DNA of 39,220 nt. Origin: a virus. The translations under genes were made by a program, and so were the position numbers. The notes under the pieces are model-generated. The model saw only the letters and a list, made by a program, of their open reading frames with translations. It was not told the origin of the DNA and ran no database searches. Of the stretch, positions 6,954 to 37,814 are shown piece by piece. Location of the stretch: the IMG/VR virus record IMGVR_UViG_3300026483_000880, positions 1 through 39,220 of that record; one strand, written 5' to 3'. Positions within the stretch are counted from its first letter, which is position 1; each line of letters starts with the position of its first letter.

Positions 6954-7694
6954 TTAGAATGGTTTATTTTTATCTTTATTTTCTAATTGTCCTTTAATCC
7001 AAAGTTTTCCTAGTGGATTTTTAATTGGTTTAGAAATTTGTTTAGCAATTTGTTTTTCTATTTGAGCTAAAATATCACCTCCATATTCAGAATTATCTAC
7101 AATTAACATATTACCTGCTCCGAATAATTTTTGAAATTTACCTAAGTTATCTTGAACCTCTTTCCACATCTTTTCAACCATCTTGTCTTCAAGTTTACGT
7201 TCTCTCATTCTGTTTCTCTCTAATGCAATATCTAATGATGTATTTACAAATACCATATAACAATCATATCCCATATCACGATATAAATTTCTATGTCCTT
7301 TTATTTTATCAAAGTTTTTACCAGTACCGTCAATTACTTGACCTAATTTTCCGCCTAAGTAATTATTTTGCATTCTTTTAGTAAGTCCTTTAGCTTTATC
7401 TCTGATTACCATTACTTTTTCCCATTCTTCTGGATCTTTGGCTAATTTAGATAAATCAGCAGGGCTATAACCTGCTTTTTTTAATCCTGCTTCAAACGCA
7501 TTATCATTATTGACTAGTTTCAATCCTGTTGCATATGACACCGAACTTACTACTCCTTTTGGAAAATTAAAAAGTTCTGTAGCAACATATGATTTACCAG
7601 AACCTGGTCCACCTGCCATAAAGAATGCCTTAAGAATTCCTTGATCATGAACACCTTCATCAATAAATTGTTCAAATAATTTTATTTTCTTCAT
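6954..7694 (-). CDS. P-loop kinase with capsid-targeting-like N-terminus
   Basis: 246 residues. Residues 1-13 (MKKIKLFEQFIDE, then G) match the T4 capsid-targeting pattern, with a likely prohead-protease cut after Glu13. The body begins with a Walker A motif GGPGSGKS (28-35) and continues as a polynucleotide-kinase/zeta-toxin-like P-loop domain: VIDGTGKNF about residues 120-130, VFVNTSLDIALERNRMRER as the lid-type Arg-rich helix. The reaction is therefore probably ATP-dependent phosphorylation of a nucleotide, nucleic-acid end or sugar nucleotide; the substrate cannot be told from sequence. It lies at the downstream end of the capsid-cargo block. Packaging in the head is inferred from the N-terminal tag. 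Confidence 0.8.
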   Translation of the reverse strand: MKKIKLFEQFIDEGVHDQGILKAFFMAGGPGSGKSYVATELFNFPKGVVSSVSYATGLKLVNNDNAFEAGLKKAGYSPADLSKLAKDPEEWEKVMVIRDKAKGLTKRMQNNYLGGKLGQVIDGTGKNFDKIKGHRNLYRDMGYDCYMVFVNTSLDIALERNRMRERKLEDKMVEKMWKEVQDNLGKFQKLFGAGNMLIVDNSEYGGDILAQIEKQIAKQISKPIKNPLGKLWIKGQLENKDKNKPF

Positions 7695-11236: not shown

Positions 11237-11545
11237 TTAATTAATGTACATATTTAATTCATATCCAGCTGTTCCACTTCTACCGTATATTTGAACATGT
11301 AAAGCTTTCTTTTGTTCTTTGTCGTTTTTATATAAACTTAATGTATCTTTTTTAGTTGCACCTTCTTTTGGTTTAAAGAATGCATCAACATATGCATTAC
11401 CATATTCCTCACTATCAAGATGATAACCCTTTACTGCTGCGTATCTTTCAATTTCGTCTATAGTTGAAGAGTATGTTCTGTGATATATTTGAAAATCACC
11501 TCTTGACTCGCTCACGTACTCTTCAAACAATTTTACTTTTTTCAT
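11237..11545 (-). CDS. Small capsid-targeted protein, YVSE tag (102 aa)
   Basis: N-terminus MKKVKLFEEYVSE followed by Ser matches the targeting-and-cleavage pattern, with a cut expected after Glu13. The mature part of about 89 residues (IYHRTYSSTIDEIERYAAVKGY...AYVDAFFKPKEG...ALHVQIYGRSG) is a small alpha/beta domain of unknown function. It lies in a run of three tagged genes separated by 2-11 bases, so it is co-expressed with them. Most likely an internal head protein injected with DNA. Confidence 0.75.
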   Translation of the reverse strand: MKKVKLFEEYVSESRGDFQIYHRTYSSTIDEIERYAAVKGYHLDSEEYGNAYVDAFFKPKEGATKKDTLSLYKNDKEQKKALHVQIYGRSGTAGYELNMYIN

Positions 11546-11547
11546 AA

Positions 11548-11898
11548 TTAAAAGTTTAATTTTTTTATTTTTTTAATAATGGTTTTAACATCATCATCTT
11601 TATCACCATATACTGGAGATTCATTAGAACTATTCCAAACTGCCATATTAACTACAGTACCATCAGAATTAATGTTATATGAACCACCTGCATATTCGTC
11701 TCCGTCAATATCTAGGTCGAATGAGTCCTCTTCATAATCATCACTAACAGTGTATTCTTTACCGTCTAATTTTGTAAGAGCATCTGCAAATTTCTGTGCA
11801 ACCTTTAAAGTTTCTTTTTTAGAAAGACCAGCTCTGCTTTTTTTAGTTAAATGAGAAGTTTCATTAGTAAAATCTTCGAATAGTTTTACGTGTTTCAT
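11548..11898 (-). CDS. Small capsid-targeted protein, FTNE tag (116 aa)
   Basis: N-terminus MKHVKLFEDFTNE followed by Thr. The rest starts basic (KKSRAGLSKKETLKVAQKF) and then becomes very acidic (SDDYEEDSFDLDIDGDEYAGG), ending in a Lys-rich helix (IIKKIKKLNF). Acidic small internal proteins are common in T4-type heads and in anti-restriction or anti-defence cargo, but no specific family is recognised. It follows the FINE-tagged gene upstream by 5 bases and precedes the YVSE-tagged gene by 2 bases. Confidence 0.75.
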   Translation of the reverse strand: MKHVKLFEDFTNETSHLTKKSRAGLSKKETLKVAQKFADALTKLDGKEYTVSDDYEEDSFDLDIDGDEYAGGSYNINSDGTVVNMAVWNSSNESPVYGDKDDDVKTIIKKIKKLNF

Positions 11899-11903
11899 AA
11901 TAA

Positions 11904-12206
11904 TTATAATTTAAATTTAGCATCCTTAAACGCTTTTTTGATTTGCTTAGTTACGTCAGATTGAATACCTGGTCCTCTAAAGCTTCCACCTATTTCATAA
12001 GCTCTTTCTTTTACAGATTCTGCAAATGATTTTGCTTCATTATATACTTCCATTTCTAGTTCTTCTCTTCTCTCATCTTCGTCATCTGAAATAGTACCAT
12101 CAGCGTTCGCTTCTACAATAGGTTGTTTTTTAGAAGATTCACATGAGCAATTACCTCCGCATTCACATTCGTTTATAAAGTCTTCAAACATTTTTGTGTG
12201 TTTCAT
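11904..12206 (-). CDS. Small capsid-targeted protein with Cys cluster (100 aa)
   Basis: N-terminus MKHTKMFEDFINE followed by Cys. Directly after the likely cut come four Cys in CECGGNCSCE (14-23), which could bind a metal. Residues 35-60 are acidic (DGTISDDEDERREELEME), and the C-terminus is basic (VTKQIKKAFKDAKFKL). It is the first gene of the three-gene tagged run and has the GATATATAGATTATAA motif 16 bases upstream. Function unknown; head packaging inferred. Confidence 0.75.
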   Translation of the reverse strand: MKHTKMFEDFINECECGGNCSCESSKKQPIVEANADGTISDDEDERREELEMEVYNEAKSFAESVKERAYEIGGSFRGPGIQSDVTKQIKKAFKDAKFKL

Positions 12207-12747: not shown

Positions 12748-13122
12748 TTAAGATAAACTAAAACTCTGTATATTTAAACTATCATTAAATTCTTTCTCTT
12801 CTTGTTTTTCCCATTTACTAGTTTCAACTCTATCATGAACTGAAATAGGAGCATCTGATGGGAATCTTGAATCTGATGTGTAGATAAAATTACCACCAGC
12901 CATAGAGTGTCTTCCACTTTTAAATAATCCTGCAGGAACTGCGTAATTAGATTGTTTTCCAAATATTGTTCTTTCAACGAGTATCAACTCATCATCTGGA
13001 ATTAAGTCAGTTTGTAAATTTTGTCCATAGTGAAGAATAATGCTATCTTCTCTAGAAGTTAAACCATTGTTTGTACAATCACCTAGTGAATTTCTTAGTA
13101 CGAATGTTAAAATTGTGTCCAT
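12748..13122 (-). CDS. Small conserved phage protein, copy A (124 aa; paralogue at 36197)
   Basis: Start set at 13122 (MDTILTFVLRNSLGD) because the paralogue at 36197 begins at the same point (MSNILTFVLRNSMGD) and the upstream extension would run through a terminator. Both share the core SREDSIILHYG, LIPDDEL.LVER, YAVPAGL and SDSRFPS.AP..VHDRVE. Copy A has a longer acidic tail (KWEKQEEKEF). The fold is unknown, though the short conserved motifs suggest a compact beta-rich domain. It is preceded by the same type of promoter as its paralogue. Confidence 0.75.
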   Translation of the reverse strand: MDTILTFVLRNSLGDCTNNGLTSREDSIILHYGQNLQTDLIPDDELILVERTIFGKQSNYAVPAGLFKSGRHSMAGGNFIYTSDSRFPSDAPISVHDRVETSKWEKQEEKEFNDSLNIQSFSLS

Positions 13123-13158
13123 CTCTATTTGTTTTTTAATTATACTACTAATATACCA
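13123..13158 (-). promoter_or_regulatory. Promoter-like element shared with the paralogue
   Basis: On the minus strand, T-run, then GGTATATTAGTAGTATAATT, then A-rich leader before the start at 13122. It matches in order and spacing the conserved elements at 29875-29940 and 36118-36183 (T-run, CTTATATTAGTA, GTAATAAT). TATATTAG resembles the Bacteroidetes TAnnTTTG box. Confidence 0.5.
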
Positions 13159-13161
13159 AAA

Positions 13162-13191
13162 AAAAGCCAAATAAAAAAATATTTGGCTTTT
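13162..13191 (-). terminator. Rho-independent terminator
   Basis: Perfect 12-bp stem AAAAGCCAAATA / TATTTGGCTTTT with an A-rich loop and T-runs, located just after the stop of the 13216-15231 gene. Confidence 0.8.
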
Positions 13192-13215: not shown

Positions 13216-15231
13216 TTAAAATACGAATTGAAAAGTCTTTAATAGATCTTTAGCTTTAATAGAATCTGCATCTACACCAAACTCATCATATAGTTTTTGA
13301 TACATTTCATCCCATAAATCTTGATCTGCTAAATCATTTAATACTTCTTTATTATCTCTAATGAATTTTTTTACATCACCTCTAATATCTTCATTTACTT
13401 CAGTGTCTAATGCAAATTTTTCAACTAGTGAATCTAATGTTACTTCAACTACTGATTCTTCTAATTCGTCAATAAATTCTTGAACATCACCGCCGTCATT
13501 TAATGAGTATGTAAATTCATCTTTAGCTTTATTAGAAATAATTACAGTATCGCCTTTGATTTCAGCCTTCATGTTTTTCATTCCTTTAAGTGCTTGTTGA
13601 ATAAGTATTAAAGCATCATCTGAATTCTGACCATAACTTCTTTCATTCACTGATTCCATTAAACCAATTGCAATATCTCCAACTTCTCTATCACCACCAT
13701 CAACATACTTCTTGTTTAGTATTGCGAATTTAAAACCGTCTGCTTTTATCATATACATTGGCATCATACCAGTACTAAAGTCATATTTGTAATTACCAGC
13801 TTTTAATTCTTTACCAACATTCATAAATGATTTAGCATTTCCTACTAAATCAGCTAAATTGTCTAAGTGTGTTCCAGCATCATCTTTTTCATTGATTGTT
13901 TTTGCTTCATAAACTTCTATAGCATCTTCTATATCTTGTAAGTCCATACCAAAGTTTTCAGCATGAGCTACTGCATAATCAACTAATTCACTATAACCAA
14001 GATCTTTTCTTGCATCTTCCCATTCTTTTCTAGTTTTTCTATCATCGGAATTTCCATATGCATCGTCTAAGAAATCGATTAAAACTTCTTCGTCTTTTGT
14101 ATTTAAATAAGAATCTATTGCCATTAATTCTCTATTTTCACTTAAGCCTTGTTCTTTATTTTGTTCTTTAGCAAAAGCAAATGCATCTTCTTCAAGTTCA
14201 AAACATTTAACTAATGTATCGCCTTCCCAAACACCATATGGTGTTTCTGGTTTATCACAATGTCTTACTTCATATTTGTCATTTGGATTTTCGCTGTGAT
14301 GTTCAGTAACTTCTTTTGCCCAACCAACTTTATGATTTTTAGCATATTGCGCATGTGCCAATGGCATAAAATATTCATCACGTTGCTTTTTATTTAACAA
14401 TTTCCAATAAGCATCAACTAAGTCTCCGCGACCATTGTCTGAATGTCCACCAATTTCCGCATAATGTGCAAGAGCTTTTTCAAATTCTTTACTAGAACCT
14501 TCAGTAATAACTACTGATTCAGCTAATTCTGCATGAACATCTTTTAAACCTACAGCATCGTCTAATTGAGATAGTAAATCTTTTTTCTGTGCAGTTAATG
14601 CTCTTAGTTTTTCTAATAGTTCAGTCTTTCTGTCACCTTCAGCTGCTTTCCATTCTTCAACAGTAGTTACCATGTCTTTTACAACTTGGCCATACTCTTT
14701 TTGAATTTTAGTAATTGATTTGCCTTCTTCTAACTTAGTTTCATTATTTTCGAATGCATATAATTCTTTGGCTGATTTAAGTTTCTTACCTGCTTTTTCA
14801 GGATTACTAGGATCTGGATGTGCTAATAAACCAGCATCAATTAATCTATCAAATATTTCATCTCTTACTAAACTGAAGTCAATAGAATCACTAGAATTGT
14901 CCCAAGTTTGGGCAACATATTCAGGATCTATCCAACCATAACCTTTTTTAATATCATTAACCATATCTTTGAAATCCATTTCAAATTGCTTAACTCTACC
15001 TTCATTTACTGTAATTATAGCACTAGATAGTGATTTAACCGCTGTTAATTTATCTGTAAAAAGATTTAAAGCCTCGTTTAATACAACAGGTTCTTTAATA
15101 TCCTCTACAATTTTAGTAGCTTTAATAGGACTTTTAGTTTCAGATATCAATAAAGCTTCTTTAATTACTTCTGCAGAATATAAATTTATTGCAGAGTCAT
15201 TTTTATTATTGAAATTTATAAATGATGACAT
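13216..15231 (-). CDS. Possible internal-head polyprotein, 671 aa
   Basis: No enzyme motif is recognised. At least six protease-type sites of the same kind as the cargo tags are spread along the chain: LNE53-A, VNE77-G, ITE244-G, INE448-K, VNE530-R and VNE614-D. Several are preceded by ESV or ESVV. They lie at plausible borders between helical blocks, e.g. VKQFEMDFKDMVNDI after 77 and SSKEFEKALAHYAEIGGH after 244. One segment has VWEGDTLVKCFELEEDAFAFA; another has MPMYMIKADGFKFAILNKK. The protein is strongly acidic overall. It has its own late-promoter-like motif and terminator, so it is a single-gene unit. It could be a head-core or scaffold protein, or a chain of injected proteins cut during maturation. 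Confidence 0.65.
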   Translation of the reverse strand: MSSFINFNNKNDSAINLYSAEVIKEALLISETKSPIKATKIVEDIKEPVVLNEALNLFTDKLTAVKSLSSAIITVNEGRVKQFEMDFKDMVNDIKKGYGWIDPEYVAQTWDNSSDSIDFSLVRDEIFDRLIDAGLLAHPDPSNPEKAGKKLKSAKELYAFENNETKLEEGKSITKIQKEYGQVVKDMVTTVEEWKAAEGDRKTELLEKLRALTAQKKDLLSQLDDAVGLKDVHAELAESVVITEGSSKEFEKALAHYAEIGGHSDNGRGDLVDAYWKLLNKKQRDEYFMPLAHAQYAKNHKVGWAKEVTEHHSENPNDKYEVRHCDKPETPYGVWEGDTLVKCFELEEDAFAFAKEQNKEQGLSENRELMAIDSYLNTKDEEVLIDFLDDAYGNSDDRKTRKEWEDARKDLGYSELVDYAVAHAENFGMDLQDIEDAIEVYEAKTINEKDDAGTHLDNLADLVGNAKSFMNVGKELKAGNYKYDFSTGMMPMYMIKADGFKFAILNKKYVDGGDREVGDIAIGLMESVNERSYGQNSDDALILIQQALKGMKNMKAEIKGDTVIISNKAKDEFTYSLNDGGDVQEFIDELEESVVEVTLDSLVEKFALDTEVNEDIRGDVKKFIRDNKEVLNDLADQDLWDEMYQKLYDEFGVDADSIKAKDLLKTFQFVF

Positions 15232-16112: not shown

Positions 16113-16859
16113 TTAAATATTTTTTAAATTATTTACAAGCCAGTCTAATTCTACTTGACTACCTGAATCTGAGATGGCATTTTCAGGATCTGGGTGTGTT
16201 TCAACGAACACTCCATCATATTCAAATATACGAGCTGCTTGAGAATATTGCTTTGCCAATTTACGACTTCCTCCTGTAATACCGTCACCTGCCATTTGAG
16301 TAGAGTGTGTACAATCAAAGATAACTTTGTCTGCAAATTCTTTCATTACATCAACACCTCTAAAATCTACAATTAATCTATCATATCCAAAGTTAGAACC
16401 TCTTTCAGTAAGCCAAACTTGACAATTAGGATTTACTTCTTTAATTTTAGTAACAGCATGTTTCATAGCATCTGCCGATAACCACTGTCCTTTCTTAACA
16501 TTAATAGTATTGAAATGTTTTGCACACTCTACTAATAGATCTGTTTGTCTACATAAGAATGCTGGAATTTGAATTACATCTACCACATCAGATAATGGTA
16601 ATGCTTGACTTGTTTCATGAATGTCAGTAACTATTTTAATATCAGGAAATCTATCTTTGACATTTCTCATAATATTAATACCTTCGTCCAAACCTGGACC
16701 TCTATTAGAGTGAATTGAAGTTCTATTAGCTTTATCGAAACTGCCTTTAAGATACCAATCTTTTCCATTCATTAATGGATAAAGTGTTTCAGCAACTAAC
16801 ATGAAGTTGTCCTCGTTCTCAATACTACAAGGACCTAGTATGTATGTGTAATCTTGCAT
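16113..16859 (-). CDS. kdsA: 3-deoxy-D-manno-octulosonate 8-phosphate synthase (KDO-8-P synthase)
   Basis: Condenses phosphoenolpyruvate with arabinose 5-phosphate, the first step to KDO of lipopolysaccharide, in the cytosol. Family motifs appear in order: GPCSIEN, KGSFDKANRTSIHSNRGPG, VTDIHE, IQIPAFLCRQTDLL, NVKKGQ, TERGSNFGYDRLIVDFRG, FDCTHSTQ and FVETHPDPENAISD. The Cys in GPCSIE and the downstream His, Glu and Asp are those of the metal-dependent class (as in Aquifex). The protein is 248 residues, some 20-35 shorter than usual, missing mainly the C-terminal helix. It stands alone between unrelated phage genes, so it is probably an acquired host-type gene. Together with the phosphomannomutase and RmlD-like genes it suggests phage control of host surface sugars. 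Confidence 0.93.
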   Translation of the reverse strand: MQDYTYILGPCSIENEDNFMLVAETLYPLMNGKDWYLKGSFDKANRTSIHSNRGPGLDEGINIMRNVKDRFPDIKIVTDIHETSQALPLSDVVDVIQIPAFLCRQTDLLVECAKHFNTINVKKGQWLSADAMKHAVTKIKEVNPNCQVWLTERGSNFGYDRLIVDFRGVDVMKEFADKVIFDCTHSTQMAGDGITGGSRKLAKQYSQAARIFEYDGVFVETHPDPENAISDSGSQVELDWLVNNLKNI

Positions 16860-18526: not shown

Positions 18527-19126
18527 TTATTTTATTGCTTTTATTGTTGATATATTTATCCCATCGTATTCGTCTTCTAATGATTTTACTAATTTTAGGT
18601 TAGCATCGTCATCATCATAAAACTGCATATCATTGTAACCCATTTCTATAAGTTCTTTGAATGCTGCTTTTTTACGATCAGATATATTACCTTTGAATTT
18701 GTGAATAGGATCATTAACTGCAAATATTAATTCATAATCAATTCTATATCCTACGTGTTCTCTTAGCCATTTATGAATCATTTTACGATCATCTCTTGCC
18801 GTAACAATTCCTACTGCTAATTTTGACTTATAAGCTTCTTTGAATATTTTAAGATAATATTCTATTAATTTACCGGCTTTCATAATCTCTAAAGATTTAA
18901 ACTCGTCAAAGTTTAATTCTTCATGTTCACCTTTTTCATATGTATTGAATTCTTCAGGTGTTAGAGAATAACATTCACCTGTTTTTTTATTACACACCTT
19001 GATTTTTGCAGAAGATATAACTAATGTATCATCAAGATCAAATACAAGAATTTTAGACCCATGATATGGTTTACCTGGCCTTCTTGCTTCATTTAAATAA
19101 GCTTCATATCTTTTAACGTATTTCAT
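18527..19126 (-). CDS. HAD-family phosphatase with capsid-targeting-like N-terminus (199 aa)
   Basis: N-terminus MKYVKRYEAYLNE followed by Ala fits the targeting tag. The HAD core is complete: FDLDDT (nucleophile Asp30, Asp32), VTARDDR (motif II Thr109), a Lys in SDRKKAA, and FYDDDDAN (acidic motif III, about 169-176). The cap is small, as in the phosphatase half of T4 polynucleotide kinase-phosphatase and related nucleic-acid or nucleotide 3'-phosphatases. The substrate is not certain; an acid-phosphatase-type role is the alternative. With the tagged kinase at 6954 and the tagged ligase at 36522 it could form a packaged end-repair set. Confidence 0.82.
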   Translation of the reverse strand: MKYVKRYEAYLNEARRPGKPYHGSKILVFDLDDTLVISSAKIKVCNKKTGECYSLTPEEFNTYEKGEHEELNFDEFKSLEIMKAGKLIEYYLKIFKEAYKSKLAVGIVTARDDRKMIHKWLREHVGYRIDYELIFAVNDPIHKFKGNISDRKKAAFKELIEMGYNDMQFYDDDDANLKLVKSLEDEYDGINISTIKAIK

Positions 19127-19156: not shown

Positions 19157-19420
19157 TTATTTATTATTTTCTTGTCTTATTTTAATGGCAGCAGTTTTAA
19201 TATCTAATTTTACTATTTGTGCTTGTAAAGAAAGTTTTTGTGCAGCGATCGCATGTAACTCGGATTTCAATGGATCCTCTTCTTCTCTTTGCTTTTTAGC
19301 AGTATCAGCGGCCTTTATCTTGATATCGGTTTTCTTTTTATCTAAATCTCTAATCTTTTGATTTAAGTCAGCAACTTTTTGTGCATCTTCGTAAATCTTT
19401 TGTGTTTTAATGTGTTTCAT
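19157..19420 (-). CDS. Small coiled-coil protein with degenerate targeting-like N-terminus (87 aa)
   Basis: Almost the whole chain is charged helix with heptads (LNQKIRDLDKKKTDIKIKAAD; LQAQIVKLDIKTAAIKI). The start MKHIKTQKIYEDAQ looks like an eroded version of the MKH.K.FE.F.NE tag, with ED-A at the cut position. It overlaps the mini-MscS-like gene by 14 bases. Function unknown; a packaged or scaffold-associated helix is a weak suggestion. Confidence 0.65.
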   Translation of the reverse strand: MKHIKTQKIYEDAQKVADLNQKIRDLDKKKTDIKIKAADTAKKQREEEDPLKSELHAIAAQKLSLQAQIVKLDIKTAAIKIRQENNK

Positions 19421-19712
19421 TTTTTGGTATGTCTTTTTCTATTTCTAATCTCCATAACATATTATTTGGAACTATAAATTTTCTATCGTGACCATATACA
19501 TAAAAAACAGTTTTCCATATATTTTGTCTTACTATTCTGGCCTTTTTAGCTCCTCTAATGTAAACTATATCATCTATATTGTAATCATTGCCATATAAAA
19601 ACTGTGCTCCTATTACAAAATTAGAAACAAGATCTTTAAATGCAAATGTTATTATCGCAACAGCCGTCAACCATCCCCATTCTCCTACAAATTTAGATAC
19701 TATTTCTTCCAT
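19407..19712 (-). CDS. Mini-MscS-like membrane protein (101 aa)
   Basis: One hydrophobic helix (about 13-32, GWLTAVAIITFAFKDLVSNFV) runs into the MscS beta-domain signature: LVSNFVIGAQFLYGNDYNIDD, DDIVYIRG...ARIVRQNIWKTVF and FIVPNNMLW, matching the family order of N..G..., f..GD.v, G.V..I....T and iPN..l. Full MscS channels have three or more helices and a C-terminal domain, both absent here. It might assemble as a minimal pore or interfere with the host channel by co-assembly. It overlaps PAP2 and coiled-coil genes on each side. Confidence 0.7.
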   Translation of the reverse strand: MEEIVSKFVGEWGWLTAVAIITFAFKDLVSNFVIGAQFLYGNDYNIDDIVYIRGAKKARIVRQNIWKTVFYVYGHDRKFIVPNNMLWRLEIEKDIPKNETH

Positions 19713-20685: not shown

Positions 20686-21078
20686 TTATATATCACCCAT
20701 ATATTTATCTCTAACTCTACTACTGACAGAAATTGCTTCACCTTGTTCGTCTACTCTTACAAATTTAATATGTGTTGCAAGTATAATGCCTTGTTTACCG
20801 TTGTATACATTATGTGATCTTGCTTCAACTTTTAGGGTGACAGATGAGTTTCCTATTGTTTCTACTTCACCGTATATTTTAAGGAGATGTCCTTCTTTTG
20901 CTGGTTTTTTAAAAACACATTTATCTATGAGAACTGTTACCATTCTTGGTGTATCGCATACTTGGGAAGCATATGCAGCTCCCGCTGCGTCAACCCATGC
21001 TAATAATTTTCCACCAAAAAGATTGCCATGAAATCCCAAGTCGGACTTCTTGACCGGATGCGTACTTATTAACTCCAT
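20686..21078 (-). CDS. Hotdog-fold acyl-CoA thioesterase, copy A
   Basis: 130 residues with the YciA/ACOT-like signature GFHGNLFGGKLLAWVDAAGAAYA, then VTVLIDKCVFKKPAKEGHLLKIYG and SVTLKVEARSHNVYNGKQ. The Asp in WVDAAG is the expected catalytic residue. It would hydrolyse acyl-CoA in the cytosol. A second copy of about 80% identity lies at 35119 on the other strand; copies differ mostly in the C-terminal third. Which acyl chain is used cannot be told. It abuts the lipoprotein gene upstream (adjacent start and stop), so it is in an operon with envelope proteins. Confidence 0.9.
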   Translation of the reverse strand: MELISTHPVKKSDLGFHGNLFGGKLLAWVDAAGAAYASQVCDTPRMVTVLIDKCVFKKPAKEGHLLKIYGEVETIGNSSVTLKVEARSHNVYNGKQGIILATHIKFVRVDEQGEAISVSSRVRDKYMGDI

Positions 21079-22042: not shown

Positions 22043-22483
22043 CTATTTTAGAGATTTCTCGATAGCTTTCTTGATTGCAGACGCAAATACTGTCTTATTA
22101 AAAGGTAAGTTCTCATCTTGTAAATCGATGAATGTAGCTTTAACTGTAGATTTAGCCATTCCTTCAACTTCAATTACATTATCATCCATATAGATTAGTA
22201 AAGTGACTATTGTTTTTTTACTCACTTTAGTCCACGGTCCTATCGATATTCCAGTCGTTGGTGCTTCTATTGAAGTTACTTTAACTTCAACTGGCTTACC
22301 ATCTAAACATAAATCATACTTGTCTGAAATAACATCTTCCATCATTTGTTTAATACCAAATGTAATTCTTCTTTGGCTGATCTCTTCCATTTCAACTTCT
22401 GTTGTTACATTCTTAACAGTATAACAATCTTGTGCGAATAACATAGTTGGAATTAAGAATAGGAGTATTAATAGCTTTTTCAT
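22043..22483 (-). CDS. Exported small protein following the putative OMP (146 aa)
   Basis: Start placed at 22483, giving MKKLLILLFLIPTMLFA as a good signal peptide with cut before QDCYT; a start 7 codons earlier is less likely. The mature protein is about 128 residues with two Cys, a repeated strand pattern (VEVKVTSIEAPTTGISIGPWTKVSKKTIVTLLIYMDDNVIEVEGMAKSTV) and a C-terminal amphipathic helix (FASAIKKAIEKSLK), which resembles the end of CsgG/lipoprotein-type outer-membrane assembly subunits (AIKKAI). Its start overlaps the end of the upstream gene by 1 base. A periplasmic partner of the CsgG-like protein is the working idea. Confidence 0.65.
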   Translation of the reverse strand: MKKLLILLFLIPTMLFAQDCYTVKNVTTEVEMEEISQRRITFGIKQMMEDVISDKYDLCLDGKPVEVKVTSIEAPTTGISIGPWTKVSKKTIVTLLIYMDDNVIEVEGMAKSTVKATFIDLQDENLPFNKTVFASAIKKAIEKSLK

Positions 22484-22484
22484 A

Positions 22485-23855
22485 TTAGAATCTAATTTTA
22501 CCACCAGTTAGTATTTGATAGTTGAGGGCATTTCCACCTGATTGCCAAACTCCAGTAAAACTGATATTGTATTTGAATGTTTTTGTAATTTGTATATCCC
22601 AAGAACTAAATGGAACTATAAGAACACCTGGATCCCACCATTGACCTTCATAGTATTGTGTGAATGGAGAATAGACTCCTAGAATTAAAGCCGATGTTGT
22701 AATCTTTGGACTAACTCTAAAGTTTCTATGAACTCCAGTAACTGCTGATAGATTTTGTAGTTCTCTTTTACCTAATTTACCTATAGTAAAATTTAAACCA
22801 GCCATTCCAGTGAATTTCTTCTTACCAAACTTAAATGATTCTAAAACAGTAGTTGTGTTTAAATGATTTTGATTAAAATTAGTCATTGTAGTATTTGCAC
22901 CTACTAAATTAAATGTTCTATTCGGATTGATCCATGATTTATAGAAAGTTAAACTAAAATCATTAGTTACAGTTGTATATGTAAATAGTGCTCCTTGAAC
23001 TCTGCTCTTTTTTGTATTAGCACTAGTAATAGAACCTACTACTTTTACTTGACGTCCATTTGAGTTATCTTGGTTGTCAATAACTACAATATCGCCTGAT
23101 GCAATTAAAGAACCTCTGTTTTTATTATCTGATTCTCCACCATCAACTGCATTTGAAATAGAATTAGCTAAAGACATACCTAATCCGCCTTCTTTTGATT
23201 CATCTTCTGTTTTTGTTTCAGCGCTACCTGTTGAAGTGCCACCTCCACCTGTATTACTTTGTTCATTACTAGTTTGATTAGAACCAGAGCCATTAGATTG
23301 TTCCGAACTAGACTCTGAATTACTATTCTCATTATTTTTATTATCGGAACTATTAGATTCACTATTAGAATCTTCAGATTCTTTATTAGAGTTAGAACTT
23401 TGTTCTCCTGATTTCTTCTTTTTCTTTTTCTTCTTCTTTTTGTTTGCATTATCAATAGCCTCTGCTACTGGAACACCTGATGATGAAAGTGCTTGTGGTA
23501 ACATATCTCCACCTAACACATTCATTATATTTGTAATTACTGTAATAGTATTTTGAACTATTATAGCATTTGTATTATTTGTAATAGCTTGAGTAACGCT
23601 TTGACATGGATTCGCAGAATTAGCCTGAGTAACTAAATTCATCCATGCATCAAAAGTACCATCTGTAAAATCTGGTTGTGTAAATGTCTGAACATTGCCA
23701 AAATAATTTAAGGCAATCTCATCACTTGAACCCATTTGAATTGTTTGTTGATTCAGAGTACATGGATCTGTAAACGTATAAGACCACTGGCCATAACTGA
23801 CTAGTGGTGCTAAGAATAACAGAACTGTTATTATTTTATTCTTCAAATATCCCAC
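22485..23855 (-). CDS. Putative outer-membrane protein with poly-Lys and Ser/Asn-rich linker (456 aa)
   Basis: Signal peptide MGYLKNKIITVLLFLAPLVSYG, then a domain to about 130 (FTDPCTLNQQTIQMGS...FDAWMNLVTQ), a run of ten or more Lys at about 138-148, and a Ser/Asn/Glu/Gly-rich linker to about 215. The last 200 residues have alternating strand character and end with a terminal aromatic (LTGGKIRF), typical of a Bacteroidetes outer-membrane beta-barrel. It overlaps the CsgG-like gene by 20 bases and couples with it. Its function is not recognised; a channel or secretion accessory is plausible. Confidence 0.65.
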   Translation of the reverse strand: MGYLKNKIITVLLFLAPLVSYGQWSYTFTDPCTLNQQTIQMGSSDEIALNYFGNVQTFTQPDFTDGTFDAWMNLVTQANSANPCQSVTQAITNNTNAIIVQNTITVITNIMNVLGGDMLPQALSSSGVPVAEAIDNANKKKKKKKKKKSGEQSSNSNKESEDSNSESNSSDNKNNENSNSESSSEQSNGSGSNQTSNEQSNTGGGGTSTGSAETKTEDESKEGGLGMSLANSISNAVDGGESDNKNRGSLIASGDIVVIDNQDNSNGRQVKVVGSITSANTKKSRVQGALFTYTTVTNDFSLTFYKSWINPNRTFNLVGANTTMTNFNQNHLNTTTVLESFKFGKKKFTGMAGLNFTIGKLGKRELQNLSAVTGVHRNFRVSPKITTSALILGVYSPFTQYYEGQWWDPGVLIVPFSSWDIQITKTFKYNISFTGVWQSGGNALNYQILTGGKIRF

Positions 23856-24540
23856 GCTTTATCATTCTTTTTACGATACGAGCAGTTCCAGATTCTAGGG
23901 CTTTCTTAGTTGCAATACCAATTGTTGATTGATTGAATTTGACAACATTGTCTTCACCAATCTTTGATCTTTTAATCGTGACTGCTTCACCACTTCCACT
24001 GCCTGTGAAAATAGTTCCAGTTTCAGCATTAACAAATCTTACTTGCATACCAATAATAGTTTTTAGTACAGTCTTTACTCCATCAACTGTAACTTCTTCT
24101 TCCTCAGATACTGAATAGTCATATATTTCTACATATACAAAATACTCTGCTAACACAACATTACCTACAACTTTAATATCATTTGCCGATATACCTTTTG
24201 CTGCAGCTTTATGTTGCTTAACCATTCTCTGTTTGATTTCTTCTTTATCTTCTGTAAATAGAAATCTATCTGTCCATTCTAAATAAGACAGAGTAATATT
24301 ACTAACACCTAAACCAACTCTATTCTCTCTCAATTCTGGATAGAATTCATATAGTTCTGGTGTAAAGCCTATATTTAATACTTGAATAGGCAATTGATAA
24401 TCTAACATATAGTCAGATACCTCATCGATGTCTGCTTTTTGTTCAAAACTAGCTTTATAGTCTTCAGTCTCAGTTTTACCTATTTGAGCATTAACTGTAA
24501 AGGTAACTAACAAAAAGACCAGTGTAAATAATCTTACCAT
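23836..24540 (-). CDS. CsgG-family-like exported protein (234 aa)
   Basis: Signal peptide MVRLFTLVFLLVTFTVNA. The body shows CsgG/HfaB-type features: a regulated strand-helix pattern, VVLAEYFVYVEIYDYS, MQVRFVNAETGTIFTGSGSG (the family pattern of VR.VdA.TG.i...g.G.g), and STIGIATKKALESGTARIVKRM at the end (G.A...A...a). CsgG forms an outer-membrane secretion pore for curli fibres. Here the N-terminal lipid Cys of typical CsgG is missing, so it would not be lipidated. The neighbours are an exported beta-barrel and small exported proteins, which supports a secretion or assembly complex. Confidence in the family is moderate. Confidence 0.6.
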   Translation of the reverse strand: MVRLFTLVFLLVTFTVNAQIGKTETEDYKASFEQKADIDEVSDYMLDYQLPIQVLNIGFTPELYEFYPELRENRVGLGVSNITLSYLEWTDRFLFTEDKEEIKQRMVKQHKAAAKGISANDIKVVGNVVLAEYFVYVEIYDYSVSEEEEVTVDGVKTVLKTIIGMQVRFVNAETGTIFTGSGSGEAVTIKRSKIGEDNVVKFNQSTIGIATKKALESGTARIVKRMIKRGIFEE

Positions 24541-24797
24541 GTTATTTCGTCTTCTTTCTTTTCTTTAACAATCACTTTTGGTGCTTCCTTCTTTTCCACT
24601 ATATTATTAATAATAATTTGTGGTTGAGCCGGAATACTATCTTGTACTACAACTGGAGTAGGTTCCTTTTTTGGAGATAACCAACCTTCCATGTTAGTAA
24701 TAAAGATACCAAACCCAGCGGCGATGACTAAGCCAACGCCGGCAATGATTTGATTTTTAATTTCAGAAAAGAATTTGTTTTCTTTTTTATCTGACAT
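24534..24797 (-). CDS. Single-helix membrane protein with Pro/Lys-rich outer part (87 aa)
   Basis: Short cytosolic start (SDKKENKFFSEI), one membrane helix (about 17-36, IIAGVGLVIAAGFGIFITNM), and a periplasmic linker rich in Pro, Val and Lys (PTPVVVQDSIPAQPQ; VEKKEAPKVIVKEKKED). This TonB-like linker could span the periplasm. Its end overlaps the CsgG-like gene by 7 bases. It may energise or anchor the secretion set; this is inference. Confidence 0.6.
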   Translation of the reverse strand: MSDKKENKFFSEIKNQIIAGVGLVIAAGFGIFITNMEGWLSPKKEPTPVVVQDSIPAQPQIIINNIVEKKEAPKVIVKEKKEDEITW

Positions 24798-24802
24798 TCT
24801 TC

Positions 24803-24994
24803 TTAGTTTATTTTTAATGTACTAAGTATTATATAAGTTACTAATGTAAATAGTAGACCATTCATGATCTTCTCATCAGCTTCTTTTTGTGTTAGTACTT
24901 TTTTCTCGCAACATCCATCTGAAGTAGGCTTTGTAGCTCCACATCCAAATAGTAGTATTGAACTTAACGACAGTGCAATCATCTTCTTTCTCAT
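24803..24994 (-). CDS. Tiny lipoprotein with C-terminal helix (63 aa)
   Basis: MRKKMIALSLSSILLFGC is a lipoprotein signal (lipobox LFGC, Cys18). It is followed by GATKPTSDGCCEKKV and a second hydrophobic stretch (LLFTLVTYIILSTLKI), so it may be tied to the membrane at both ends. This is the style of o-spanins and small lysis or exclusion lipoproteins, but the neighbours suggest an envelope complex part. Confidence 0.62.
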   Translation of the reverse strand: MRKKMIALSLSSILLFGCGATKPTSDGCCEKKVLTQKEADEKIMNGLLFTLVTYIILSTLKIN

Positions 24995-25001
24995 TATTAA
25001 G

Positions 25002-25739
25002 TTATTTTTTTATGGTTTTAAATGTTTTAACAAATTGGCCATTAGTAACTTGTAAGAGATAAACACCTTGTGGTAATGAAGATAGATCCATTTGAAATTG
25101 TACCCATCCTGCAAAGAATCTTTTACTTTCTTTTAAAAATTCTGAACCATTATAGTTTAATACTCTGACAATATAATCGCCATTGTCTGGTACTGTCAGG
25201 TCAAATGTAATTGGACCTTTTGTTGGAACTGGATAAACAATTCCATAAATACCATCAGTTGGCCTAGTATCAAATGGCATTGATCGTTTATTCACATAGC
25301 CATCTGTGTTTTCAACATCAATATCCCATCCTAATTCTGTGCCAGCTGTTTTTCTACCAATCGTAATTGGAATTGTGTCCCAATCTTGATTAGTAACCCT
25401 AAATCTTACCGTAAATAATTCTGTTGTATTAATTATAGTAAAATTACCGAAGGAAGCGTCATAACCGCCCCATCTAACAGTTTCACCTTCCCAGTCCATA
25501 GTATATGTTAACCACTCTTGAGCTTTAGGTGTCACAGTAATCGATACAAACTCTAAATAGTCTGGATCATAGTTCAATGCAAATTCTAAACTACCAACAT
25601 CTTCGCCTGAAGTTTCAATTTCTACAGGCAGATTAATAAACTCACTTACAGGCACATCAATCTCAGGTACGTTAAATACGACCTGAGATTGTGCACATGT
25701 GGTGAACAATACTAATATTGTTAGTAGTATATTCCTCAT
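25002..25739 (-). CDS. Secreted cohesin-like protein with T9SS type-A sorting tail (245 aa)
   Basis: Signal peptide MRNILLTILVLFTTCAQS. Residues about 20-125 look like a cohesin beta-sandwich (VPVSEFINLPVEI; VGSLEFALNYDPDYLEFVSI; TTELFTVRFRV), the domain that binds dockerins. The last 75 residues have the T9SS sorting-tail plan (YPVPTKGPITFDL...YIVRVLNYNGSEF...SLPQGVYLLQVTNGQFVKTFKTIKK). So it should be exported by Sec and then by the host type IX system to the surface. Its gene starts 1 base from the end of the cohesin/dockerin-like gene. A surface receptor for dockerin-bearing partners is inferred. Confidence 0.78.
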   Translation of the reverse strand: MRNILLTILVLFTTCAQSQVVFNVPEIDVPVSEFINLPVEIETSGEDVGSLEFALNYDPDYLEFVSITVTPKAQEWLTYTMDWEGETVRWGGYDASFGNFTIINTTELFTVRFRVTNQDWDTIPITIGRKTAGTELGWDIDVENTDGYVNKRSMPFDTRPTDGIYGIVYPVPTKGPITFDLTVPDNGDYIVRVLNYNGSEFLKESKRFFAGWVQFQMDLSSLPQGVYLLQVTNGQFVKTFKTIKK

Positions 25740-25740
25740 A

Positions 25741-26835
25741 TTAATTTAAACCTGTACCGTTGGCATCACCTAATATTAATAGGTAGAAATTACCAGTGGT
25801 AGTTCCATTAATTTGTGGAGATAAAAATACTGATAGTCCTGGAATTGAACTTGACTGATCTGAACTTGAAGCATTAATAGTATTATATTGTGCTTCAGTA
25901 AAGAATAATACATCTGGATTAGAAGCGTAACTTGAGTTACCTTGTGCTAATCTAGAGAATACTAAGTAAGAATCCGATGCTGTAATTCCAGTAGCTTGAT
26001 TTGGATTTGCAGTATAGAACTGAATACCAGAAGCTGATTGTACTCCCGCAACAATTTGTGCGATCATATTAGCATCTGCAGTTGATAGTGCTGCACTTGC
26101 ATCTAGTCCACTTGCAATCTTAAGTCTAATTTGCCAGTAAGATTGGTCTAAGCTTTCTGAGAATGTTGCTGTTCCATCTGCTGCCGTTGTTACTGTAGTT
26201 ACATCTGTCCAAGTATTTCCATCTGATGATTTCTGTAAAATCACAGGAATAGATTCAGCTGGATTTGTTCCACTATTTAAGATAGTTGCTACATAATCAA
26301 ACACAGGTTCTATAAAGTTACCACCATTATCTTGTGTACCTAGAGCTCCATCTGTTCCATCAGCCTTTACATAATAAGCAGTAAGATTAGTAGTAAAATC
26401 TACGTCAGCAACTGCTCCGTTTGTGTAATTTGATAGAAAAGGTGCGTTTACTGTAAACATATTACCAGCAATCATATCGAAAGTGGTAGATGCTCCAGTA
26501 TAAACCCATACTACTTTTACTACTCCGTTTGTTGAATCAACGTCATACGACAAATATCCAACTGGGCCAGATGTATTGTTATATGCTACTGTTGGTTCAT
26601 CAAATACTGTGTTATCATAATTAAACGAAAACTGAATACCTTTAACTGCATTACCAGACGTGTTATCATAGTAAATATCAAACTCAGTGTTTGAGCTCGA
26701 ACCAGTAGATTCTAAAGTGTACGTTGAATCAAAAATAACATAAGGCTTTGTTGCATCAGGCGCAGTCGTCTGCCCGAAGACAGTCATTGTACTGATAGCT
26801 AAAGCCAGTGTTAGAAGAATGTTTTTTAATTTCAT
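25741..26835 (-). CDS. Exported protein with cohesin-like and dockerin-like parts (364 aa)
   Basis: Signal peptide MKLKNILLTLALAISTMTVFG. Residues about 35-150 have a cohesin-like pattern (VKGIQFSFNYDNTVFDEPTV; GVVKVVWVY). The C-terminal half has one helix-type dockerin-like stretch (LSTADANMIAQIVAGV; GITASDSYLVFSRLAQGN, about 250-300). The protein ends LILGDANGTGLN, which looks like the first calcium loop of a dockerin cut short, so it may be truncated or have lost its tail. No T9SS tail is present. It sits between the PA14 protein and the cohesin-T9SS protein in one operon, so the three may bind one another. Confidence 0.65.
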   Translation of the reverse strand: MKLKNILLTLALAISTMTVFGQTTAPDATKPYVIFDSTYTLESTGSSSNTEFDIYYDNTSGNAVKGIQFSFNYDNTVFDEPTVAYNNTSGPVGYLSYDVDSTNGVVKVVWVYTGASTTFDMIAGNMFTVNAPFLSNYTNGAVADVDFTTNLTAYYVKADGTDGALGTQDNGGNFIEPVFDYVATILNSGTNPAESIPVILQKSSDGNTWTDVTTVTTAADGTATFSESLDQSYWQIRLKIASGLDASAALSTADANMIAQIVAGVQSASGIQFYTANPNQATGITASDSYLVFSRLAQGNSSYASNPDVLFFTEAQYNTINASSSDQSSSIPGLSVFLSPQINGTTTGNFYLLILGDANGTGLN

Positions 26836-26852
26836 TTGTTTTTAATTTTTTT

Positions 26853-28049
26853 TTAGTTTTTATGACCCGCTCTTATTACATAGAAAGTTGTTTGATTTCC
26901 ATTGGCTAAATCAAAGAGGGACCATGCTCCGTAACCGGAGAGTTGTGATTTGTCATCTGAATCCGCAGCAACTGCCGGCCAAATGGTCGGGTTTTGCCAG
27001 GAATTTGTGTTCCATATTTCTTGTCCTCCACCAGGGTAACTGGAAATGTTACCTTGTCTCTTCTGGTGCATTAGATAAATGTCAGAGGCAGAAAATGAAC
27101 CTGTATTATTTACATCAAGTCTCCAATAATCTTTAGAACTAACTGTATCTGATAGTAATCTGTCTTGAAACCAGTTAATATCTGAAGTTGTAAGCGTTCC
27201 TATTGTCGGAATGATGTCTATTGTAAAATCGTAATCGTTGTAATTTAACGTAGTATTAAATGAATAATATCCATTTGAATCTGTTGTTGTAGTGGCTTGT
27301 GTTGTATATGAGAAACCTACTTGGTTTTTATTCTGTGTCTTTAGGTAAACTGTTTGTCCTACAATACCTTGTTCTTCTGCTCCTTTAATATACCCACTTG
27401 CCGTGATAGGTACTGCGTTAGGATCTGTAGAAGTCCATTCTGCAAATGGATGACTGGGACTGAGTTGATTAAATTGACCTGTATTATAGTTAGCGGGTAT
27501 TTCATATTGAAAATTTGCAGCACCTATACCACCAAAATTTTGAATTCTATATTCAAACTCATACCATACAGTTTTATCTAGGGTTGCCGTACCATAAGCC
27601 CATGTATTCCAACCATAATGTTTAGTAACTATATCATTAGTCTTACCAATACCTTTAATCATAAACTCATGTGAGTCATCTGTGAAAGTTCTAAATCGAT
27701 ATGTACCTGATTTGTTAGGTTTAAACCAACCGGAATAGATAATTGCATATCTTTGACTGCCCCATCTTGGTGGATTCCATAGTTGATAAGGAGTATGATT
27801 ACCACCTCTTGGGCCTTGGTAACTTGTTATATCTATAGGTCCCCATGTATAGAGTGTAGTACCGCCATCGGCAAGATTAACCATAGCGTCAAATTCTGAA
27901 TGCGAGTTAGCATTACCTGTATAATATTGACCTGATTGATTCCCACCATAGTGAGTCTTAAGTGACTTTAAGTTTACTGTAGTAGTTTGTGCATGGACGA
28001 TAGGCATCGCCAAGATAAAACACAAGAGGAATAATTTGAAGTACTTCAT
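26853..28049 (-). CDS. Exported PA14-like/dockerin-like protein (398 aa)
   Basis: Signal peptide MKYFKLFLLCFILAMPIVHA. Residues about 70-185 match a PA14 carbohydrate-binding sandwich (YSGWFKPNKSGTYRFRTFTD; WYEFEYRIQNFGG). About 217-280 resembles a carboxypeptidase-regulatory-like Ig domain (GYIKGAEEQGIVGQTVYLKT; TTTDSNGYYSFNT). Residues about 285-334 are dockerin-like (TTSDINWFQDRLLSD; RLDVNNTGSFSASDIYLMHQ). It is the first gene of the leftward envelope operon, just after the divergent promoter region. A surface-displayed sugar-binding partner for the cohesin-like proteins is inferred. No T9SS tail is seen. Confidence 0.72.
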   Translation of the reverse strand: MKYFKLFLLCFILAMPIVHAQTTTVNLKSLKTHYGGNQSGQYYTGNANSHSEFDAMVNLADGGTTLYTWGPIDITSYQGPRGGNHTPYQLWNPPRWGSQRYAIIYSGWFKPNKSGTYRFRTFTDDSHEFMIKGIGKTNDIVTKHYGWNTWAYGTATLDKTVWYEFEYRIQNFGGIGAANFQYEIPANYNTGQFNQLSPSHPFAEWTSTDPNAVPITASGYIKGAEEQGIVGQTVYLKTQNKNQVGFSYTTQATTTTDSNGYYSFNTTLNYNDYDFTIDIIPTIGTLTTSDINWFQDRLLSDTVSSKDYWRLDVNNTGSFSASDIYLMHQKRQGNISSYPGGGQEIWNTNSWQNPTIWPAVAADSDDKSQLSGYGAWSLFDLANGNQTTFYVIRAGHKN

Positions 28050-33470: not shown

Positions 33471-34292
33471 ATGAATATAATTAGTAACAAAACTAATAAG
33501 ATGATAGCACACGTATTCGACGTAGATGGGACACTAACCCCAAGCAGGCTTTCAATGGATCCTAAATTTAAAAAATACTTTTTAAAATGGATGAAAGGTA
33601 AAACTGTAATATTCGTAACAGGATCAGATAAAGATAAAACAATCGAACAAATAGGATTAGATGTATGGAATGAAGCAACTGCATGCATGCAGTCTTGTGG
33701 AAATCATATATTTGTTAAAGGAGAAGAGGTTTCTAGAAATTCTTGGAAAGCCGATGAAGGATTGATTTCTTTACTTGAACAATTTTTGGTAATTTCTAAA
33801 TATAGAAAAAGAACATCAAACCACATTGAACACAGAATAGGACTTTGTAATTTTTCAGTAATTGGAAGAGATTGTTCTCAAAGAGAAAGAGAAGACTATG
33901 CAGAATGGGATGATTTCAATAAGGAACGATTAGATATGGCACAACTCATTAATGAAAACTTCCCTGAATTAGAGGCTTCGGTCGGTGGTCAAATCTCAAT
34001 AGACATACACCCTAAAGGAGCAAACAAGAGTCAAGCTAAGAAATGGATCTTAGAAAATATAGGAGAAGATACGGTTATTAGATTCTATGGAGATAAAACT
34101 GAAAAAGGAGGAAATGACTATGACCTTGCTAATGTTTTAAAATTACCTCATGAAGTATTTCAGGTTAAAGATTGGGAACATACTTATAGAATATTAAAGG
34201 ACAGTAAGAAAAGAGATAAATGGCTCGTAGACCAATATAATAGAAATAGATCTTCAGCAGATCAGATTAATAACATTGATGACATAAAATAA
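33471..34292 (+). CDS. Eukaryotic-type phosphomannomutase (HAD family)
   Basis: Converts mannose 6-phosphate to mannose 1-phosphate, feeding GDP-mannose. It follows the alpha-PMM1/HAD family rather than the larger bacterial ManB type: FDVDGTLT (nucleophile Asp17, Asp19), VTGSD, NFSVIGRDCSQREREDYAEWD, GGQISIDIHPKGANKSQ and FYGDKTEKGGNDYDLAN (metal-binding acidic loop). 273 residues is close to the family's usual 240-260. Start could also be Met11. This family is typical of eukaryotes and scattered in bacteria, so a phage copy is unusual. Its neighbours are a small membrane protein and a hydroxylase. Confidence 0.92.
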   Translation: MNIISNKTNKMIAHVFDVDGTLTPSRLSMDPKFKKYFLKWMKGKTVIFVTGSDKDKTIEQIGLDVWNEATACMQSCGNHIFVKGEEVSRNSWKADEGLISLLEQFLVISKYRKRTSNHIEHRIGLCNFSVIGRDCSQREREDYAEWDDFNKERLDMAQLINENFPELEASVGGQISIDIHPKGANKSQAKKWILENIGEDTVIRFYGDKTEKGGNDYDLANVLKLPHEVFQVKDWEHTYRILKDSKKRDKWLVDQYNRNRSSADQINNIDDIK

Positions 34293-35012: not shown

Positions 35013-35117
35013 ATGACAGATCCTGAAGACGAATACGACGACATTGAAAATACCGAATATGATGGTATATCAATAAACAAACCCACTGAATATAACGATG
35101 ACGATTATGACTACTGA
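35013..35117 (+). CDS. Tiny acidic protein (34 aa)
   Basis: MTDPEDEYDDIENTEYDG then SINKPTEYNDDDYDY: very acidic, no Arg, tyrosine-rich. It ends 1 base before the thioesterase start, so it is probably a translated leader or coupled mini-gene. Might mimic DNA, though that is speculation. Confidence 0.4.
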   Translation: MTDPEDEYDDIENTEYDGISINKPTEYNDDDYDY

Positions 35118-35118
35118 T

Positions 35119-36521: not shown

Positions 36522-37814
36522 ATGAAAGAATTAAAACTTACACAAGAATTTGTAAACGAATCTAATTCAACAAATTCAAACACGGACAAGATTAACGTAA
36601 TTAAGAAGTATTCTAATCAACCAGATGTTCTTAAAGTGCTGCAGTATACATACGACACGTTTAAACAGTATTATGTTACTTCAAAAAACTGTAAGAAGAG
36701 AAGTGATCTAGTGCTTCCTTTCGGATCTTATACTGATATCTTCTCTTTGTTAGATGCATTGAGTTCTCGACAAATAACTGGTCATTCTGCGATTGAAGCG
36801 GTAAATACATTTGTAGAAGAGAATAAAGAATACTCTGATCTTATTTGGAATATCATTGACGGAAACCTAAAAACTAGGTCAACTATTTCTATGATTAATA
36901 AAGTTGTACCGGGTTTAATTCCAACCTTTGACGTAGCACTCGCTCAAGCGTATGACGAAAAGACTAAAAAGAAAGTAGATTGGAATGACGGATGGTATGT
37001 TAGTCGTAAACTAGATGGTGTTAGATGTCTAGCAATTATTGATGATAAAGGAGATGTTAATTTCTATAGTAGAGCAGGAAAAGAATTTACAACACTAGAT
37101 TCTTTGAAACCTTCTATCCAAAGATTAGGTCTTACGAATATGGTGTTTGATGGTGAAGTTTGTATGGTAGATGAAAATGGAAATGAAGATTTCCAAGGTA
37201 TCATTAAGCAAATTAAAAGAAAAGATCATACTATTACAAATCCATTTTATCATATCTTTGATTTATTGACCATTAAAGAATTTAACGATAAAGAATCTAT
37301 TACCTCTTTTAGTGAAAGACAATCTAACCTTAGAGCGTATGTTCTAGATGGCGATCAATTTATTAGCCACCTTGTTCAAATGTTAGGAGATGATCTTGTA
37401 ATGGAAAGAATGATGGAACTATCGAAAGAAGGAGGATGGGAAGGACTAATGCTTCGTAAGAATACAACATACCAAGGAAAACGTTCTAGTGATGTTCTTA
37501 AGGTTAAGAAATTCTATGATGATGAATATTATGTAGTTGATTTAGAGAATGCTCTTAATAGAGTTATCGTTGACGGGAAAGAAGTTGAAGAAATGATGCT
37601 TAAGAATGTTGTAGTTGAACATAAAGGAAGTAGAGTTCAGGTTGGTTCTGGTTTTTCACATGAACAAAAAAGATTTTATTTTAAAAATCCTGATAAAATT
37701 CTAGGAAAGCAAATCACTGTTCAATATTTTGAAGAAACTACAAATCAACATGGAGAACATTCACTTAGGTTCCCTGTGATCAAAGCGGTTTATGAAACAG
37801 AGCGTACCTTTTAA
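36522..37814 (+). CDS. ATP-dependent DNA ligase with capsid-targeting-like N-terminus (430 aa)
   Basis: Seals nicks in DNA through a Lys-AMP intermediate. Motif I KLDGVR gives nucleophile Lys163; FDGEVC (209-214), EGLMLRK (307-313) and VLKVKKF (325-331) are motifs III, IV and V. The C-terminal OB-fold (VEHKGSRVQVGSGF) closes the enzyme. The N-terminus MKELKLTQEFVNE followed by Ser is strikingly like the T4 capsid-targeting sequence, and is much like that of the other cargo proteins. A packaged ligase would be new to me. An alternative is that the similarity is by chance in an N-terminal helix. The gene is 1 base after the conserved small protein gene. Confidence 0.9.
   Translation: MKELKLTQEFVNESNSTNSNTDKINVIKKYSNQPDVLKVLQYTYDTFKQYYVTSKNCKKRSDLVLPFGSYTDIFSLLDALSSRQITGHSAIEAVNTFVEENKEYSDLIWNIIDGNLKTRSTISMINKVVPGLIPTFDVALAQAYDEKTKKKVDWNDGWYVSRKLDGVRCLAIIDDKGDVNFYSRAGKEFTTLDSLKPSIQRLGLTNMVFDGEVCMVDENGNEDFQGIIKQIKRKDHTITNPFYHIFDLLTIKEFNDKESITSFSERQSNLRAYVLDGDQFISHLVQMLGDDLVMERMMELSKEGGWEGLMLRKNTTYQGKRSSDVLKVKKFYDDEYYVVDLENALNRVIVDGKEVEEMMLKNVVVEHKGSRVQVGSGFSHEQKRFYFKNPDKILGKQITVQYFEETTNQHGEHSLRFPVIKAVYETERTF

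Follow-up and report, generated by a model that had tools for sequence, protein, structure and literature searches.

The sequence analysed here, a virus record of 39,220 bp with 33% GC that we call the window in its full length, contains a gene for a 671-residue protein (Table 1) in which glutamates recur in contexts resembling the cut sites of phage prohead proteases. The question it raises is whether the protein is the precursor of several separate products and, if so, whether these are destined for the phage head. A sequence-only reading had proposed a chain of small injected proteins or a core protein cut in several places. We consider it probable, at about three chances in four, that the gene encodes a head-cargo polyprotein, made of independent small domains joined by cut sites of the gp21 type (hydrophobic-x-E followed by a small residue; a slash marks the proposed cut throughout).

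Candidate cut sites in the 671-residue protein

Inspection of the sequence had yielded six sites, LNE53/A, VNE77/G, ITE244/G, INE448/K, VNE530/R and VNE614/D, and both these and the open reading frame are present exactly as described. The sites exceed chance: in 5000 composition-preserving shuffles, [ILV]NE is expected 0.80 times and is observed five times (p 0.0012), and [ILVM][NST]E is observed nine times against 2.35 expected (p 0.0004), with the qualification that the motif definitions were refined on the same data and that phylogenetic non-independence touches every count in this study. The untagged proteins of the window, when pooled, contain 0.36 [ILV]NE per 671 residues. The description of the sites as often following an ESV or ESVV phrase was overstated, since the phrase precedes two of the six (ESVVITE244 and ESVNE530). 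The sites fit the motif of gp21 substrates (L/I-x-E then A/G), the commonest P3 residue being V and the preference thus broader than the L/I of T4. The first strong site lies at residue 53, so that a T4-type CTS leader of about ten residues is not found, and the tag MKxxKLFEDFxNE is absent from the protein, unlike its neighbours. Searches of PHROG, Pfam, NCBIfam, PADLOC and phage records with the whole protein returned no match.

That the sites are mere coincidences in an acidic protein deserves consideration, because loose xxE matches are common in a sequence so rich in glutamate (10%). The loose pattern [ILV]xE occurs 25 times against 14 expected, and ISE31, VTE310 and LSE365 likewise match it, whereas the stricter motifs stand above their shuffles at p of about 0.001. 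The comparison with relatives bears on the same point site by site.

Table 1. Chains, chain pieces and tagged proteins of the window (s, delimited from the sequence only)
Feature	Coordinates	Strand	Basis or remark
671-residue chain protein	13216..15231 (stop included)	-	open reading frame
Residues 1-53, predicted leader or propeptide, ends VVLNE/A	15073..15231	-	s
Residues 54-77, ends ITVNE/G	15001..15072	-	s
Residues 78-169, ends TKLEE/G	14725..15000	-	C-terminal border from start of next module in L111 and L120
Residues 170-244, module M170, ends ESVVITE/G	14500..14724	-	homologues in L111 and L120
Residues 245-448, one or two pieces, ends KTINE/K	13888..14499	-	borders from flanking modules
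Residues 449-530, module M449, KTINE/K to ESVNE/R	13642..13887	-	41-sequence alignment A2, 56 contexts
Residues 531-614, ends TEVNE/D	13390..13641	-	s
Residues 615-671, C-terminal piece	13219..13389	-	s
Second chain, 445 residues	7788..9125	-	leader 1-17 (LESINE/G), two modules, tail 356-445
Third chain, 342 residues	10197..11225	-	1-151 ends at internal tag-like LFEEFINE/A
Tagged single-domain protein, MKKVKLFEEYVSE/S + 89 residues	11237..11545	-	homologues as chain pieces
Tagged protein, MKHVKLFEDFTNE/T	11548..11898	-	tag; homologues in L120 and L132
Tagged protein, MKHTKMFEDFINE/C	11904..12206	-	tag
Tagged P-loop kinase-like ATPase, MKKIKLFEQFIDE/G	6954..7694	-	Pfam AAA_33
Tagged HAD-like phosphatase, MKYVKRYEAYLNE/A	18527..19126	-	tag
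Tagged ATP-dependent DNA ligase, MKELKLTQEFVNE/S	36522..37814	+	Pfam DNA_ligase_A_M, E 7e-19

Module borders in other viral contigs

A first scan of IMG/VR with the 671-residue protein matched contigs L001 and L002, over residues 455-524 only. In both, the matching piece starts directly after MESVNE/, in proteins encoded next to genes for a portal and a gp21-type protease, and the sites were therefore tested as borders of exchangeable modules. Contig L003 was rejected as a relative: its 35 identical residues correspond to 123 bp at the contig end (L003:1-123, identical to window 13658-13780), followed by unrelated sequence, and the match is most likely an artefact of an assembly join.

The wider scan for this module, M449, was built from a seven-copy alignment and used peptides from the interior of the module as queries, so that the borders were not selected. 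Eighty-seven copies, representing 56 non-redundant contexts on other viral contigs, were examined. All 56 have a site of the form [ILVMFTA]xE/[GKRAS] no more than 8 residues from the start of the module, against 27% for random positions in the same reading frames, a test which fixes E at P1 by definition and in which the other columns are the informative ones. The sequences upstream of the module are mutually unrelated across contexts; among 46 distinct ones, 43 have V, L or I at P3 and 41 have G or A at P1', P5-P4 tends to be ES, and from P7 outward the information content is no higher than background (0.5-1.0 bits). The placement of M449 varies as well, from N-terminal behind a short leader (MKISLTELLNE/ in L153 and L087, MEGFREFLAE/ in L166) to mid-chain or C-terminal, and in L119 the module is tandemly duplicated. 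Its median pairwise dN/dS is 0.11, which identifies it as a selected domain under purifying selection. The M449 profile gave no match against PDB sequences and one weak match only against 84,980 cellular genomes; a cellular origin was considered and rejected.

M170 shares 55% identity over 71 residues with a piece of L111 ('STINE/AKSIAKIQ...') and recurs within a chain of L120, flanked by 'SNILE/A' and 'LVITE/G'. This homology establishes LEE169/G, a border that had been missed from the list, and supports ITE244/G. The order M170 then M449 is common to L111 and L120, with different pieces intervening. For pieces 1-169, 245-448 (also by its own scan) and 531-671, no homologues were found; LSE365/N may be an extra site that splits residues 245-448. 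Homology thus backs borders at 169, 244, 448 and 530, and of the six proposed originally, the comparison gave independent support to 244, 448 and 530 and found none for 53, 77 and 614. Chance is contradicted at the four supported positions, where border and site fall together in contexts that are otherwise unrelated, and not at the other three. Given these comparative data and the strict-motif shuffles, we reject chance enrichment as very improbable.

Modules shared with relatives and bordered by cut sites are found not only in M170 and M449 but also in two further chains of the window. In the second chain, residues 18-189 (ending NINE/N) are found in a 1090-residue chain of L120 after 'QMIVE/G', and residues 190-355 (ending VNVNE/A) in another L120 gene, between 'ESAVTE/G' and 'KSINE/S'. 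The third chain contains modules 152-250 (ending ESVNE/S), for which about ten homologues have sites at the start, and 251-342. In the module families of the three chains taken together, sites stand at nearly all the borders that were reached in relatives. A scan with the 536-residue neighbour found no relative.

The same pattern emerges from the surroundings of 80 protease genes, in which proteins were cut in silico at the motif. The cutting produced 158 segment families, 42 of them with at least three members, and revealed one gene slot near the proteases in which a constant first segment (F2) and a constant last segment (F1) enclose variable modules. In 17-21% of cases a homology breakpoint has a site close by in both of the proteins compared, against 0.7% for random positions, the pairs being non-independent. 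Of 20 distinct insertions of module scale between close homologues, 11 are flanked by a site on each side, where about two are expected, and the differences among L001, L002 and L006 consist of whole modules placed between ESxNE sites. The core of the earlier proposal, separate blocks joined at prohead-protease-type sites similar to tag cuts, is strongly supported, and those blocks that have relatives are independently inherited modules with their borders on the sites.

Chain pieces and tagged single-domain proteins

The six genes listed as tagged in Table 1 carry a CTS-like leader with glutamate at residue 13, and the similar leader of the second chain ends at residue 17. Interchange between chain piece and tagged stand-alone protein is seen both ways. 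Residues 251-342 of the third chain correspond in L120 and L132 to a free-standing protein, 82-83% identical, that carries the tag VKLFEQYxNE/S, and conversely the domain of the tagged protein at 11237..11545 is a C-terminal chain piece in L050 (after 'KVNE/S') and L147 (after 'ESVVNE/A'). The tagged kinase has a homologue in G007 which is about 50% identical and has an unrelated leader, yet the same mature start, 'ISLKEIIKGILSE/GVDDPGILK' (ILSE/GVDDPGILK in G007, FIDE/GVHDQGILK in the window). Together with the interchange, this makes the leader cut and the chain cut look like the same operation. The resemblance of chain sites to tag cuts, first noticed by eye, is borne out in that the same kind of block is found elsewhere as a stand-alone tagged protein.

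Homologues of the HAD-like phosphatase lack a leader in L295 and L296 and have one, '...NLNE/G', in L297. The tagged kinase-like, HAD-like and DNA ligase proteins look as if a DNA end-repair set were packaged in the head, an impression drawn from domain-level functions only.

The maturation protease of relatives

No protease or capsid gene was recognised in the 39-kb window, so that the enzyme of this phage has to be judged from its relatives. A phrog_207 (T4 gp21-type prohead) protease is present in 10 of the 12 module-bearing contigs searched; that of L001 matches the solved T4 gp21 (PDB 5jbl, E 2e-18), and the one encoded by G001, to which L089 belongs, shows a weak match to T4 gp21 (7e-5). 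Most of the relatives' major capsid proteins have a site L[LV]xE/A or similar near residue 60. In T4, gp23 is reported to lose 65 residues (PMC9958956), and gp21 is described as cleaving after L/I-x-E (PMC9026906). Judged by these capsid sites and by the specificity of T4 gp21, the chain motif agrees with the maturation site expected here.

In G001 and G003, protease and an acidic scaffold-like region occupy one open reading frame. Single frames of 715-726 residues, joining a gp21-type protease to an acidic, repeat-rich scaffold-like region, lie at L176:739-2919 (-) and L175:1459-3603 (+), in contigs related to the window's cargo, and carry repeated 'YxxYxAE/' phrases; T4 gp21 and gp22 are separate.

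A linker conserved as DNA

In 46 of 71 contexts from relatives, with flanks that bear no relation to one another, the DNA for the pentapeptide ESVNE reads GAATCAGTAAACGAA, whereas simulations based on codon usage reach 18 at most. When IMG/VR was scanned for GAATCAGTAAACGAA followed by G without regard to frame, at least 120 stretches were returned. Among the matches listed in the additional loci, GAATCAGTAAACGAA is in the frame of the longest open frame in 157 of 162, and the residue after the linker is A or G in 117. L233 contains six copies in one gene. This 15-bp sequence is the dominant ESVNE spelling at unrelated junctions in L001-L084 and L180-L291.

The shared linker DNA suggests a joint that is copied or recombines. 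This DNA layer is seen in the relatives only, because the window's own sites use other codons. We tentatively advance the idea, which is somewhat more doubtful than not, that the linker is at once a protease site and the joint of a DNA cassette, where in-frame head-cargo cassettes would be gained, dropped and reshuffled through recombination and whose products the prohead protease would separate. Recombination alone could explain a linker conserved as DNA, and the protein could then stay intact as a multidomain virion or cytoplasmic protein, in which linkers are recombination joints and the glutamates are never cut. Such an uncut protein would account less well for the residues preferred at the sites. 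The invariant E at P1, the hydrophobic P3 and the small P1' match the specificity of gp21 and the capsid and leader sites of the group, and the motif persists under other DNA spellings, namely in the window sites and in variants such as KLRE/G, TIAE/G and LLNE/G. For these reasons we hold it to be improbable.

Head cargo or core protein

We infer the cleavage, packaging and injection of the chain, and likewise whatever function each domain has. A leader would take the chain into the prohead core by co-assembly, the activated protease would cut after the glutamates and free the domains within the shell, and at least some of these would remain with the DNA and accompany it into the next host, as T4 internal proteins do. 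The tagged neighbours, with their 13-residue leader MKxxKLFEDFxNE/, would be the one-piece form of the same chain device, and the gain, loss and shuffling of domains at the linkers would amount to exchange of cargo between phages.

The main rival remains a multi-site core or scaffold protein like T4 gp22, gp67 and gp68, chopped by the protease into disposable fragments most of which would exit the head, especially as regards the constant segments of relatives' chains. These T4 proteins undergo several internal cuts in one protein, as is proposed here, and the core proteins of T4 are described as being broken down to several fragments, which for the most part do not stay in the head (PMC9026906). 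They are, however, scaffold peptides, whereas the pieces here are discrete, conserved domains, one of them under purifying selection, that are exchanged as units and are also made singly as tagged proteins, next to a tagged kinase, HAD protein and DNA ligase. Genomic position speaks both ways. Some relatives' chains sit between portal and capsid genes with the protease adjoining, which is where T4 keeps its core genes, and a conserved core role is quite possible for their constant F2 and F1 segments. The window chain, on the other hand, sits among tagged cargo-like genes, and no head morphogenesis gene was recognised near 13-15 kb of the window, unlike the portal-protease-capsid block of the relatives' chains. 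Homology of the 671-residue protein to T4 gp22, gp67 or gp68 was not found in PHROG, Pfam or phage records. We regard a core role for the chain as unlikely, though it is the alternative to be taken most seriously.

Read as head cargo, the chain has several partial parallels. T4 IPI-III and Alt, which bear a CTS and are processed by gp21, likewise have a leader ending in hydrophobic-x-E before a small residue and are variable head cargo. In the T4 internal proteins each gene nevertheless supplies one cargo, whereas the chains described here string together several cargo-like domains separated by sites, and, unlike the T4 proteins, these domains pass from chains to single genes and back. In phiKZ and SPN3US, proteins of the head and inner body are reported to be cut extensively after glutamate by gp175 and gp245, with several cuts inside long propeptides (PMC10052503, PMC9026906), but there the multiple cuts described strip the propeptide from a single mature protein, and no chain of swappable domains appears in the passages covered. 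Eukaryotic RNA virus polyproteins also combine one chain, repeated sites and a viral protease, as proposed here; they contain an obligatory, fixed gene set, in contrast to shuffled cassettes of phage head cargo.

The polyvalent proteins (Iyer et al. 2017, PMC5512222) are described as chains of several domains, believed to travel with the DNA on delivery and to be split by proteolysis, and have been likened to polyproteins. They use an embedded MPTase and recognisable enzymatic domains, whereas the window chain has sites that fit a separate prohead protease. Membership in this group was rejected, because the window chain has no embedded MPTase or catalogued effector or enzyme domain. No Pfam domain scored above the cut-off in the window chain, and in the relatives' chains the matches to DUF3008 and RNase_J_C alone passed it. 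Within the titles, abstracts and passages covered, with subscription papers and preprints outside the scope, no description was found of chains of cargo whose domains can be swapped at the sites of a prohead protease.

If the head-cargo reading is correct, one targeting leader could carry many cargo domains by way of polyproteins cut by the maturation protease, and the swap of a single domain would suffice to change the cargo. It would offer a testable account of how variable internal proteins evolve, as well as a reading rule for unannotated proteins of environmental T4-like phages, which would be cut in silico and their pieces treated separately, each piece being likely to act in the head or in the host. 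It could also represent a natural design for loading phage capsids with multiple proteins.

Phage immuto and other genes of the window

The cultured Flavobacterium phage immuto (MW353176) has a small example only, immuto35A_191, with ESVNE/G...ESLNE/D. In the same phage, the scaffold-like protein 203 contains a tandemly duplicated piece (GFEQWLDSVSAQMDKFGKNN...); the loci for the immuto35A_191 pattern and the protein 203 repeat are MW353176 113962-116487 and 125582-126823.

Two close paralogue pairs occur in the window, one at 12748-13170 (-) and 36197-36520 (+), the other at 20686-21078 (-) and 35098-35517 (+), the latter being 4HBT-type thioesterases (Pfam, first copy tested). Metabolic or host-like genes lie at 16113-16859 (-), 33471-34292 (+) and 19407-19712 (-), and belong, in that order, to the DAHP/KDO8P-synthase family, a phosphomannomutase-like HAD hydrolase and a short mechanosensitive-channel beta-domain protein. 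Between 22043 and 29862 there is a run of secreted-looking, host-like proteins with signal-peptide-like starts and a C-terminal domain that by eye resembles Bacteroidota sorting domains, and the gene order at 22043-28049 resembles that of immuto genes 13-19 (lectin, hypothetical, cohesin domain, ...).
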